Shown: positions 28,725 to 33,529 of the stretch, piece by piece
How the letters are laid out: each line of letters begins with the position of its first letter
How positions within the stretch are numbered: position 1 is the first letter of the stretch
Assembly (NCBI GenBank): GCA_019240115.1
Contig: JAFAYV010000022.1
Location: 1 to 61,567 of the forward strand
DNA from: Solirubrobacterales bacterium
GTDB taxonomy: Bacteria; Actinomycetota; Thermoleophilia; Solirubrobacterales; Solirubrobacteraceae
Reading direction: 5' to 3'
Length of the DNA stretch: 61,567 nt
The notes under the pieces: generated by a model
What the model saw: the letters and a program-made list of their open reading frames with translations, nothing else
Database searches by the model: none
Told to the model about the DNA's origin: nothing
Position numbers and translations under genes: made by a program

Positions 28725-29252
28725 TTATCGGCCGGCGTCGGACCGCTTGACGTGCAGCGGGGGCCCGGCGCAACGGACCGCCTGGGCGGGCCGGGCTCGG
28801 TTCAGCCCCGCCAGCAGCGCGTCGAGCCGCTCGCCGTCGGGGAGCGCGAGGTCGGAGTCGAGCTCGAGCAGGGGCACGAGCACGAACCGTCGCGAGCTGA
28901 CCTCCGCGTGGGGGAGGGTCAGCCGCGGCGACGCGTAGCGCTCGTTGCCGAGCAGCAGCAGGTCGACGTCGATCACCCGCGGGCCGTGCCGCGGCCCCCC
29001 GGCCGCCCGCCCCACCTCGTGCTCGACCGCCTTGCAGGCGTCGAGCAGCGCCTCGGGGGCGAGCTCGGTGTCGATCTCGATCGCGGCGTTGAGGAACTCG
29101 GGCTGGTCGAGCACGAGCCCCACGGGCTCGGTCCGGTACGTCGATGAGGAGCGCAGCACGCGCACCCCGTGCTTGGCGAGCGTGGCCACCGCCGCCTCGA
29201 GATGGGCGCGGCTGTCCCCGATGTTCGACCCCAGCCCGAGGTACCCGCGCAC
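28725..29252 (-). CDS. folK: 2-amino-4-hydroxy-6-hydroxymethyldihydropteridine pyrophosphokinase
   Basis: The 175-residue folate enzyme pyrophosphorylates hydroxymethyl-dihydropterin. It shows YLGLGSNIGD at the N-terminus, SSSTYRTEPVG, QPEFLNAA and the catalytic RVIDVDLLLLG. GTG 29252 gives the canonical N-terminus (MRGYLGLGSN). A TTG eight codons earlier is also open but lies in a repeated segment. The start region (GACGTG plus about 13 nt) is repeated upstream with a 19-bp period. It follows folB in the folate operon. Confidence 0.94.
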   Translation of the reverse strand: MRGYLGLGSNIGDSRAHLEAAVATLAKHGVRVLRSSSTYRTEPVGLVLDQPEFLNAAIEIDTELAPEALLDACKAVEHEVGRAAGGPRHGPRVIDVDLLLLGNERYASPRLTLPHAEVSSRRFVLVPLLELDSDLALPDGERLDALLAGLNRARPAQAVRCAGPPLHVKRSDAGR

Positions 29253-29293
29253 GTCAGGCCCGCCCGCCCACGTCAACCCCGTCCGCGCACGTC
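29250..29293 (-). repeat. 19-bp tandem repeat carrying the folK start codon
   Basis: GACGTG recurs exactly every 19 bp on the minus strand (GTG codons at 29290, 29271 and 29252; the last is the folK start). The two upstream GTGs open five-codon frames (MRGRG, MGGRA) that each stop in a TGA one base before the next GTG. The sequence after each GTG resembles the first folK codons, so the start region has apparently been duplicated. Confidence 0.6.
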
Positions 29294-29307
29294 GTGGCGG
29301 CGCCGGC

Positions 29308-29742
29308 TCACTCGCCGTGCTCGGCCTCGCGCCACACCTCGACCGAGACCTCGGTCACCGGCAGCGCGAGCGGAGGCTCGGGCTTGGCCGCCTTGACCCA
29401 CACCGCCTCGGGGCCGTACTGCGCGAGCAGCCGCTCGGCGATCGCCGCGCACAGCCGCTCGAGCGTCTTGTACGTCCGCTGCTGGGCGACGAGGTTGACC
29501 GAGTCGCACACCTGCCCGTAGTCGACGGTGTCCTCGATCCGATCTGTGACCGTGGCGTCGCAATCAGTCACATCGAGGCGCAGGTCGAGCAGCAGCCTTT
29601 GGCCGACCTCGCGCTCGGCGGCGGTCACCCCGACGTGCGTGTACAGCGACAGTCCCGAGATCTCGATCGCGACCTCGGGCTCGGAGGCCTCAGGCTCGTC
29701 CTCTACCTCGTCGGGGTCATAGTCGGCGTCGTCCCGGGCCAT
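29308..29742 (-). CDS. folB: Dihydroneopterin aldolase
   Basis: The 144-residue enzyme converts dihydroneopterin to hydroxymethyl-dihydropterin. The core begins at EISGLSLYTHVGVTAAEREVGQ (about 27), with DTVDYGQVCD and the catalytic-region TYKTLERLCAAIAERLL. An acidic, disordered-looking N-terminus of about 22 residues (DDADYDPDEVEDEPEASEPE) precedes the core and is unusual. ATG 29742 lies 40 bp inside the folP 3' end, in another frame, so the extension may be a by-product of overlap. Confidence 0.95.
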   Translation of the reverse strand: MARDDADYDPDEVEDEPEASEPEVAIEISGLSLYTHVGVTAAEREVGQRLLLDLRLDVTDCDATVTDRIEDTVDYGQVCDSVNLVAQQRTYKTLERLCAAIAERLLAQYGPEAVWVKAAKPEPPLALPVTEVSVEVWREAEHGE

Positions 29743-30539
29743 GGCCGTGAGAACGTAGCAGCCGCGACCTCGAGCCCATCGCGCGTGGGGTGGACGTCGT
29801 GGACCCGGAAGACGCTGGCCCCGCGCTCGTAGGCCAGCACGTTGACGGCCACCGTCGCGACCACCCGCCCGTCGAGCGCCGCCCCGGTGATCTGCCCGAG
29901 GAACGACTTGCGCGAGGCCCCGAACACGATCGGCCGCCCGAGCGCAACGAGCTCGTCGAGCCGGCGCACCAGCTCGAGGTTGTGCTCGAGCGTCTTGCCG
30001 AACCCGATCCCGGGATCCAGGAGGATGCGCTCCTCGGCGATCCCCGCCTCGACGGCGGCGGCCATCCGCGCCTGCAGGAACGCCTTGACCTCGGAGACGA
30101 CATCGTCGTAGCGGGGATCGTCCTGCATCGTCCGCGGCTCGCCCAGCATGTGCATGAGGCAGCAGTCCACCCCGGCGTCCGCGACGATGCCCGCCATCGC
30201 CGGGTCACCGCGCAGCGCCGTGACGTCGTTGACGAGCGTCGCCCCGGCGCGGAGGCCCGCGGCGGCGACCGACGCCTTCGAGGTGTCGATCGACAGCTGC
30301 GCGCCGACGCCCCGCAACCCCTCGAGCACCGGCACGACGCGCTCGAGCTCGACCGCCTCGCCGACCGTCTCGGCTCCGGGCCGGGTGGACTCGCCGCCGA
30401 CGTCGAGGATCGCGGCACCCTGGGCGACGAGCGCGAGCCCATGCTGCACCGCCGCCCCCGGATCGAGGTAGCGCCCGCCGTCGGAGAACGAGTCGGGGGT
30501 GACGTTGACGATCCCCATGATCCGCGGCCCCGCGGTCAC
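29703..30539 (-). CDS. folP: Dihydropteroate synthase
   Basis: The 278-residue TIM-barrel enzyme condenses hydroxymethyl-dihydropterin pyrophosphate with p-aminobenzoate and is the sulfonamide target. It has GIVNVTPDSFSDGG, DVGGESTRPGA, INDVTAL-type VNDVTALRGD, DPGIGFGKT and GASRKSFLG. The start is GTG 30539 (ATG 30518 is also possible) with GGAG 5 nt upstream. That start and ribosome-binding site are the last unit of an eight-fold 17-bp repeat. No folE lies next to it, unlike in many actinobacteria. Confidence 0.96.
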   Translation of the reverse strand: MTAGPRIMGIVNVTPDSFSDGGRYLDPGAAVQHGLALVAQGAAILDVGGESTRPGAETVGEAVELERVVPVLEGLRGVGAQLSIDTSKASVAAAGLRAGATLVNDVTALRGDPAMAGIVADAGVDCCLMHMLGEPRTMQDDPRYDDVVSEVKAFLQARMAAAVEAGIAEERILLDPGIGFGKTLEHNLELVRRLDELVALGRPIVFGASRKSFLGQITGAALDGRVVATVAVNVLAYERGASVFRVHDVHPTRDGLEVAAATFSRPWPGTTPTMTPTR

Positions 30540-30670
30540 GTCGGCTCCTCGGTCACGTCGGCTCCCCGGTCACGTCGGCTCCCCGGTCATGTCGGCTCCC
30601 GGGTCACTGCGGTCCCCACGGTCACGTCGGCTCCCCGGTCACTGCGGCCCCCGTTTCACGTCGGCTCCTC
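30534..30670 (-). repeat. 17-bp tandem array of ribosome-binding site plus stop/start codon before folP
   Basis: Eight units (17 bp, one of 18) run from 30670 to 30534. The core on the minus strand is GGAGCCGACGTGACC: a GGAG ribosome-binding site, 5 nt, then GTGA in which a stop and a start overlap. The first unit is the end of the upstream gene (stop 30658-30656); the last provides the folP start. Units at 30585 have ATGA instead of GTGA. Reading through, each start opens a frame of 6 codons (12 at the 18-bp unit) ending at the next overlap. Confidence 0.85.
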
Positions 30671-30934
30671 GTCGGGCCAGCGCCCCGTGCGGTCGAAGTG
30701 CTCGCGCGCCCGCTCCTCCTCCTCGCGCTCGGCGTTGGACTGGAGACTGAGGCGAAACAGCCAGTTGGTCAGCCACACGATGAGCGCGACGATCACGAAC
30801 CCGACGCCCACCGCCGACTCCAGCGAGTGGGTGTCGGCGAGCTCCGAGTAGCTGAAGTGGCCGAGGAACAGCAGGACCACCCCGGCGACCCCAATCCCGA
30901 GCGGCAGCCAGACCCGCGTCAGGCGAAGGATCAC
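30656..30934 (-). CDS. Small two-helix membrane protein
   Basis: The 92-residue protein has two hydrophobic segments (about 9-25 and 41-61), then a charged, Glu/Arg-rich cytoplasmic tail (NAEREEEERAREHF). No family is recognised. It sits 29 bp after ftsH and before folP on the same strand, where folE is often found in other actinobacteria. Its last codons and stop (GAGGAGCCGACGTGA) are the founder copy of the 17-bp array that leads to folP. Confidence 0.7.
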   Translation of the reverse strand: MILRLTRVWLPLGIGVAGVVLLFLGHFSYSELADTHSLESAVGVGFVIVALIVWLTNWLFRLSLQSNAEREEEERAREHFDRTGRWPDEEPT

Positions 30935-30963
30935 CTAGTGCCCGCGTCCCGCGGACACGGGTT

Positions 30964-32904
<1,941 letters not shown>

Positions 32905-32986
32905 GATGGCGGTGCGCGACCTTCGTCCTTGAGACCCCGGACTGATCTGCCGCGGATCAGGTAGCCTAGCAGGAGCGTTTGTCCGC

Positions 32987-33529
32987 TCAGCCGGTCGATC
33001 CCGGCCGCAGGGCGGCCACGTACGGCAGGTTGCGGTAGCGCTCGGCGAGGTCGAGGCCGTAGCCGATCGCGAACCGGTCGGGGATCTCGAACCCGACGTA
33101 CCGCGTCTGGAGGTCGACCTTCCGGCGCTCGGGCTTGATCAGCAGCGCGCACACCTCGAGCGACGCCGGGTTGCGTCCGGCGAGGTTGCGCATCAGATAC
33201 TGCAGCGTCAGGCCCGAGTCGACGATGTCCTCGACGATCAGCACGTCGCGGCCCTCGATCGCCGCGTCGAGGTCCTTGAGGATCCGCACGACCCCCGACG
33301 AGCGCGTCGCCGACCCGTAGGAGGCGACCGCCATGAAGTCGACCTCAACGGGGATGGCGAGGTGGCGCATGAGGTCGGCGAGGAAGAACACGGCGCCCTT
33401 CAGCACCCCGATGAGCAGCAGGTCCTTGTCCACGTAGTCGCGCGAGACCTCGGCGGCGAGCTCGGCGACACGGCGCTGCAGGTCCTCCGCGGTGACGAGG
33501 ACCTCGCCGATCGCTCCGTCGTCGCTCAC
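32987..33529 (-). CDS. hpt: Hypoxanthine phosphoribosyltransferase
   Basis: The 180-residue purine-salvage enzyme makes IMP/GMP from bases and PRPP. VLKGAVFFLADLMR, the PRPP loop VLIVEDIVDSGLTLQYL and IPDRFAIGYGLD are characteristic. GTG 33529 overlaps the tilS stop as GTGA (4 bp), indicating coupling. An SD-like CAGGA overlaps the end of tilS. Confidence 0.95.
   Translation of the reverse strand: MSDDGAIGEVLVTAEDLQRRVAELAAEVSRDYVDKDLLLIGVLKGAVFFLADLMRHLAIPVEVDFMAVASYGSATRSSGVVRILKDLDAAIEGRDVLIVEDIVDSGLTLQYLMRNLAGRNPASLEVCALLIKPERRKVDLQTRYVGFEIPDRFAIGYGLDLAERYRNLPYVAALRPGSTG

Follow-up and report, generated by a model that had tools for sequence, protein, structure and literature searches.

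A 17-bp tandem array of eight stop/start overlaps upstream of folP: probably a duplicated gene junction of near-neutral effect

In the window, i. e. the whole 61,567-nt stretch of contig JAFAYV010000022.1 from a Solirubrobacterales bacterium (GCA_019240115.1), the minus-strand junction between a small membrane protein gene (gene 1) and folP consists of a short tandem array. Its stop/start overlaps form a chain of mini-ORFs that leads from the stop codon of gene 1 to the start codon of folP. We give a probability of roughly three in four to the reading that the array is a duplicated GTGA junction which is near-neutral or mildly weakens the coupling of the two genes, rather than a tuned device.

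The gene order on the minus strand is hpt, ftsH, gene 1, array, folP, folB, folK. The identities of folP and folB are backed by Pfam; the names hpt, ftsH and folK are our assumption from the translations. Gene 1 was matched in 27 of 28 genomes of the genus (its own genome counted) and had no match in a Pfam search at E 1e-5. Throughout, the genes in stretches and loci are predictions of a simple caller and not curated annotation. The features of the junction are:

30656..30934, minus strand: gene 1, small membrane protein of 92 aa, C-terminus EEPT, followed by the TGA with which the stops of the array begin
30525..30668, minus strand: 17-bp tandem array, strand consensus ACGTGACCGGGGAGCCG (Tandem Repeats Finder: period 17, 8.4 copies, 80% matches, score 179)
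30536..30659, minus strand: span of the eight RTGA stop/start overlaps
30639..30659, minus strand: mini-ORF 1, GTG start, M-KRGPQ
30622..30642, minus strand: mini-ORF 2, GTG start, M-TGEPT
30587..30625, minus strand: mini-ORF 3, GTG start, 12 codons, crosses the 18-bp unit
30587..30607, minus strand: off-path mini-ORF from the GTG at 30607, stop shared with mini-ORF 3 (frame read by eye)
30570..30590, minus strand: mini-ORF 4, ATG start, MTGEPT
30553..30573, minus strand: mini-ORF 5, GTG start, M-TGEPT
30536..30556, minus strand: mini-ORF 6, GTG start, M-TEEPT
5 nt upstream of the folP GTG, minus strand: folP's own GAGGAG, anti-SD duplex -8.2 kcal/mol
29703..30539, minus strand: folP, dihydropteroate synthase, GTG start at the last overlap (Pfam PF00809 Pterin_bind, E 1.3e-85)

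By copy number, the array ranks third among 376 arrays whose period is at least 10. The first bases of the RTGA overlaps lie at plus-strand coordinates 30659, 30642, 30625, 30607, 30590, 30573, 30556 and 30539; seven are GTGA and one, at 30590, is ATGA. They are spaced by 17 nt throughout, except for one 18-bp unit between 30625 and 30607. From the TGA of gene 1 the frames lead without interruption through six mini-ORFs of 6, 6, 12, 6, 6 and 6 codons, which encode KRGPQ, TGEPT, VTVGTAVTREPT (11 residues after the initiator), TGEPT, TGEPT and TEEPT, to the GTG of folP, and each step is a stop/start overlap of -4 nt. The repeat finder and this frame walk agree with the first-pass annotation, which had read from the letters an eight-fold stop/start junction before folP, the same mini-ORF peptides with an 11-residue frame at the 18-bp unit, and a chain without a break into folP. 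Its peptides are right; the start at 30607 lies off the main path and shares its stop with the 12-codon frame. The GGAG that it had placed in each unit is exact before six of the eight overlaps; G-runs take its place before the overlaps at 30642 and 30607, with anti-SD duplex energies of -8.6 and -5.5 kcal/mol. SD-like sequence precedes all eight starts, with duplex energies from -5.5 to -8.6 kcal/mol for the anti-SD letters that we assumed in the calculation.

The unbroken chain is the arithmetic of a 17-bp duplication and no sign of function. With a unit length of 2 mod 3, the frame that starts in one copy ends at the TGA of the next; with 1 mod 3 it ends two copies on, and with 0 mod 3 it reads into the downstream gene. 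Seventeen is 2 mod 3, so a unit of this length that contains an RTGA and lacks further in-frame stops closes into a relay of its own accord. A single 18-bp unit makes one frame skip one overlap, as observed. Origin by chance was rejected: when the pattern of four RTGA at 17-nt spacing was reversed as a control, it had no match in the own genome and two matches across all 28 genomes of the genus.

That the array originated when an ordinary GTGA junction was duplicated in tandem, as the first-pass annotation had proposed, is likely and well supported by sequence comparison. The two outer copies, at the end of gene 1 and at the start of folP, both contain CGAGGAGCCGACGTGA, the inner copies vary, and relatives have single overlaps at this place. 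The junction was examined in 24 of the 28 genus genomes, and the end of gene 1 was recognised in 20 of them, the own genome included. Eleven of the 19 others have a single overlap or near-overlap: -4 nt in seven, -8 nt in three (G007, G023, G016) and, in G001, either a longer overlap or a start 1 nt past the stop. In three, the spacer is bridged by mini-ORFs (two in G002, one each in G005 and G009); the chain in G002 runs via a TTGA repeat unrelated to the 17-bp unit. The remaining five have neither an overlap nor a bridged spacer; in them folP could start in frame 6-9 nt (G013, G024, G011, G020) or 25 nt (G017) past the stop of gene 1. By the script's -4/-1 rule, a complete chain is missing in nine of the 20 genomes, namely in four with an overlap of -8 nt or longer, four with the start 6-9 nt downstream and one with the 25-nt gap (G017).

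A diverged homologous array in relatives, which the first-pass annotation had named as counting against its view, was not seen among the genus genomes viewed: inspection by eye of the region upstream of folP in the 23 others revealed no 17-bp array. Since the unit is absent from these genomes, the array is probably recent, and it looks like a local expansion of an ordinary junction. In the closest relative at gene 1 (G013, 69% identity), folP has an in-frame N-terminal extension containing GC-rich repeats of its own; the extension marks a slack site at folP that is filled differently there. Further along the window, a 19-bp array of 2.6 copies containing GACGTG lies over the folK start region at the folB-folK junction (29244-29293, minus strand), in which no RTGA relay was apparent on inspection. 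A megablast against plasmids gave a single, uninformative match covering 11% of the query (Rhodococcus).

Tandem arrays across stop codons are over-represented in this genome. Our sample comprised 81 stretches (1.29 of 4.03 Mb); arrays were counted if their period was at least 7 and they lay clear of the stretch ends. The 389 arrays fell into 263 in-gene, 74 intergenic, 38 stop-only, 6 stop+start and 8 start-only arrays, compared with 326.6, 28.6, 13.0, 7.3 and 13.5, respectively, under random placement. The stop-only count exceeded the maximum of 23 in 300 random placements. Altogether 44 arrays span a stop (about 20 expected), and the folP array is among the six that also span a start. The period is a multiple of 3 in 228 of the 263 in-gene arrays versus 9 of the 44 stop-spanning arrays, which is what coding-silent duplication of the latter predicts. 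Unlike stop-only arrays, stop+start arrays are not enriched; thus the junction is not free of cost. In G013 a stop lies within 9 of the 99 arrays, where 5.1 were expected (stop-only and stop+start pooled). The complete genome G015 has 2 of 64 in 400 kb (2.5 expected), hence the excess is not genus-wide. One array of the own genome (L132, 7638-7701) carries about nine repeats of the 7-bp unit TGAGTCG across the stop codon of a gene.

The course of events that we propose starts with one GTGA overlap between gene 1 and folP, which would have been duplicated in 17-bp steps, one copy being 18 bp long, in a G+C-rich genome where short duplications are frequent and over-represented across stop codons. 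Duplication over the overlap spares both proteins, as the first copy stops gene 1 and the last starts folP. Since the unit is 2 mod 3 long and brings along an SD-like sequence and an RTGA, every additional copy automatically adds a mini-ORF whose end is at a later start. Ribosomes leaving gene 1 could in principle proceed into folP by stepwise termination-reinitiation, and folP could also be started de novo from its own GAGGAG, which would set a floor for its translation. Very short frames may lose peptidyl-tRNA. We infer that stepwise reinitiation takes place at some rate and that its effect is near-neutral or mildly weakening: if each step is below full efficiency, the flux would be attenuated, so that more copies would weaken the coupling rather than strengthen it. 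The putative tuning of folP by copy number, an idea of the first-pass annotation, is possible.

The first-pass annotation had also named a transcript start downstream of the array as counting against a relay. A scan of 30400-31100 returned no sigma-70-like promoter and no terminator; the promoter scan may not cover the promoters of this organism. A structured RNA is unsupported, as the array RNA folds less stably than its own shuffles (z +1.92) and an Rfam search of 29000-31500 found no family.

Similar relays exist elsewhere. The 28 genus genomes were searched with exact spacing for at least four RTGA at periods 14, 16, 17, 19 and 20, and the unit sequence differs between the arrays found. 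Relays lie between P-loop_TraG and T4SS-DNA_transf genes (contig C27) and between SIS domain and HypF genes (C51, period 20) in the own genome, and between LutB-like and LUD domain genes, a LutB-LutC-like pair, in G022. At L320, L322 and L343 the first RTGA is the upstream stop and the last the downstream start. L320 (1501-1555; G002:C643) has four ATGA at 17-nt spacing in strongly diverged units, flanked by acyl-CoA dehydrogenase-like and enoyl-CoA hydratase-like genes, and is possibly an old relay. At L361 (G000:C97, about 32815-32998) ten ATGA stand at 20-bp spacing in near-identical units; there the flanking genes are on the opposite strand, and our gene calls give no relay. By the same calls, 7 of 19 RTGA loci of periods 16, 17, 19 and 20 lie at same-strand junctions (both ends within 60 nt), versus 2 of 21 for CTGA (21 of 25 arrays; three had no locus and one was identical with an RTGA array).

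When GTDB genomes were scanned for runs of five RTGA with a 17-nt period, at least 119 stretches came up, which are a non-random sample, with at least 123 arrays, at least 91 of them away from locus ends among the matches listed. Of these 91, 9 were classed as relays; 23 touch a stop alone and 9 a start alone, 6 are antisense in genes and 44 lie elsewhere; most RTGA arrays among the matches listed are therefore not relays. Stop and start are both in phase with the array at L232, L254, L264, L271, L300 and L311 (among the matches listed), and L295 and L305 were taken as approximate relays. For example, a cytidine deaminase gene and a phosphorylase gene flank the relay in Mesorhizobium kowhaii (L232), and that of an Actinomycetota MAG lies between two ABC-2 permease genes. 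An alphaproteobacterial relay (L264, 4124-4195) lies upstream of a pgpA gene, and its unit ATGACGGGAGAACCAGA resembles the folP unit in sequence and SD position. L262 was dropped as a relay, its unit identity of 0.45 being about the level given by the fixed RTGA alone and the next gene probably beginning at a later ATG. To judge from these sequences, relays with unrelated units arise repeatedly, in the genus and in distant bacteria.

Whether such geometry is selected was assessed in several ways. CTG is rarely a start codon, and CTGA arrays served as control. Among arrays of at least four units, those of periods 17 and 20 stand to those of periods 16 and 19 as 14:4 for RTGA and 17:8 for CTGA (Fisher p=0.73, with the degenerate RTGA array G002:C643 dropped, the degenerate CTGA array G022:C288 kept and G016:C85 on both sides); with G002:C643 kept, p was 0.51. 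Period-14 RTGA arrays have no CTGA counterpart and were left out. There is no RTGA-specific frame bias relative to CTGA. When RTGA and CTGA arrays are pooled, periods of 17 and 20 are commoner than those of 16 and 19, a lean to 2 mod 3 in both groups (31/43, one array counted on both sides; p=0.005).

A second comparison used three genomes, with the cutoff for array scores reduced to 38. Here the unit was 2 mod 3 long in 7 of 10 stop+start arrays versus 19 of 54 stop-only arrays (p=0.076), a lean that is suggestive of relay-compatible selection. In the first sample all six stop+start arrays were 2 mod 3, after hand correction of two compound periods, one of which was also corrected by the automatic rule; the addition of four low-scoring arrays, of which G000 contributed three and G013 one and which include two of 2 mod 3, led to the p value given. 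The GTDB loci (at least 119; 882,855 bases), selected arrays excluded, contained no stop+start array to count. Finally, complete chains were counted at junctions with gaps of 12-300 nt. The own genome has 30 in 405 junctions, against an expectation of 21.05 and a highest count of 27 among 200 shuffles; tandem arrays account for at least six of these chains (the one in the window, L096, L104, L107, L132, L139). G015 has 3 in 123 (2.84 expected) and G013 1 in 66 (0.56 expected). In these three genomes there is no clear excess of non-repeat relays beyond the arrays. Taken together, the selection tests are mixed, leaning neutral.

It is unlikely, in our view, that the array has been kept by selection as a relay in which stepwise reinitiation preserves or tunes the gene 1-folP coupling over the 116-nt gap. 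One argument for this comes from the native pairs of Huber et al. 2023: according to the available part of PMC10666635, coupling drops to near zero within 20-38 nt, and the last 15 nt of the upstream gene are enough for coupling. If this rule holds, ribosomes from gene 1 would reach folP via the chain only. However, other studies cited in the same part of PMC10666635 find coupling across at least 73 nt, so the distance rule is contested. The lengthened junctions of G002, G005 and G009 are likewise bridged by mini-ORFs, yet nine of 20 genomes do without a complete chain at this place. Relays with other units at the LutB-LutC-like, SIS-HypF and TraG-like pairs, and the lean of stop+start arrays to 2 mod 3, also point to selection, whereas the missing RTGA-specific bias and the 21 complete chains expected by chance in 405 junctions argue against it. 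The higher share of RTGA than of CTGA arrays at same-strand junctions fits a selected relay, but it equally fits duplication that starts from RTGA junctions. All eight overlaps are intact despite about a dozen changes elsewhere in the units (a hand count of little weight); against this, the array was seen in one species only, with one genome per species, and folP has an SD of its own. The broader proposal that tandem relays are a recurrent self-made class of junction in bacteria, in which the unit lengths surviving duplication of a coupled junction mostly keep the RTGA chain, ribosomes traverse many mini-ORFs in succession and copy number sets downstream translation, seems doubtful to us.

A role of the array as a binding site or structure at the DNA or RNA level, with incidental frames, is very improbable. 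G-rich direct repeats could be a putative protein-binding site, but the weak fold, the negative Rfam search and the lack of a sigma-70-like promoter or terminator at 30400-31100 speak against such a role.

Mycobacterial interspersed repetitive units (MIRUs) have units of tens to about 100 bp, and their copy number differs between strains. They were reportedly described by Supply et al. in 1997. According to the available sections of PMC12548453, they are seemingly mobile and occur in many mycobacteria, and they resemble the folP array as junction repeats that contain an ORF in -4-nt coupling with the following gene and are expected to disturb the host gene little. By that account a MIRU inserts with an internal ORF coupled at -4 nt, and the geometry is the same in the folP array, which overlaps its flanking gene start at -4 nt, with eight RTGA in series. 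Its unit of 17 bp is however shorter than that of MIRUs, its frames have 6-12 codons, and it appears to have arisen in place. Moreover, GGAGCCGACGTGACCG with at most one mismatch occurs five times in the array and four times singly elsewhere in the genome, with 29 further places at two mismatches (a control pattern had 5 in all), and the other RTGA arrays of the genus have different units. Insertion of a mobile MIRU-like family was rejected on finding no second array of the 17-bp unit in the own genome, and we consider its probability next to negligible. Since the array shares the -4-nt geometry with MIRUs but is not a dispersed family, we class it as a home-made, MIRU-like serial overlap.

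Other known systems share single traits with it. Termination-reinitiation pairs, as described in the available parts of PMC6728339 (Huber et al. 2019) and PMC10666635, likewise have an RTGA overlap and SD-like sequence in the upstream gene end, and they have one overlap, whereas the folP array has eight in series, with 4 nt at every step and SD-like sequence before all eight. The TAACTGA repeats of Beggiatoaceae are also short, tandem and stop-bearing and lie near starts, sometimes over an upstream stop; they differ, in the available part of PMC4679880, in being one common 7-bp sequence at many loci whose unit has no start codon and does not match the folP unit. In the available part of PMC5574718, a short ORF is translationally coupled to iraD, as the mini-ORFs may be to folP, but it is a single one under CsrA control. 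We found no prior report of 17-bp relay arrays in the available parts of the open-licence PMC literature, to which the search was confined.

Most likely, then, the folP array is a by-product of the frequent short DNA duplications in this bacterium, and it is probably near-neutral. It offers a natural test of how many times in succession a ribosome can terminate and restart, on frames down to six codons; under the contested rule of about 20-38 nt, as given in the available part of PMC10666635, the output of the downstream gene would differ sharply between a junction that has the chain and one that lacks it. For annotation the array is a warning, since such arrays leave start calls uncertain. 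For the organism, it illustrates that tandem duplication across a stop codon can lengthen an operon junction and leave both proteins unchanged.
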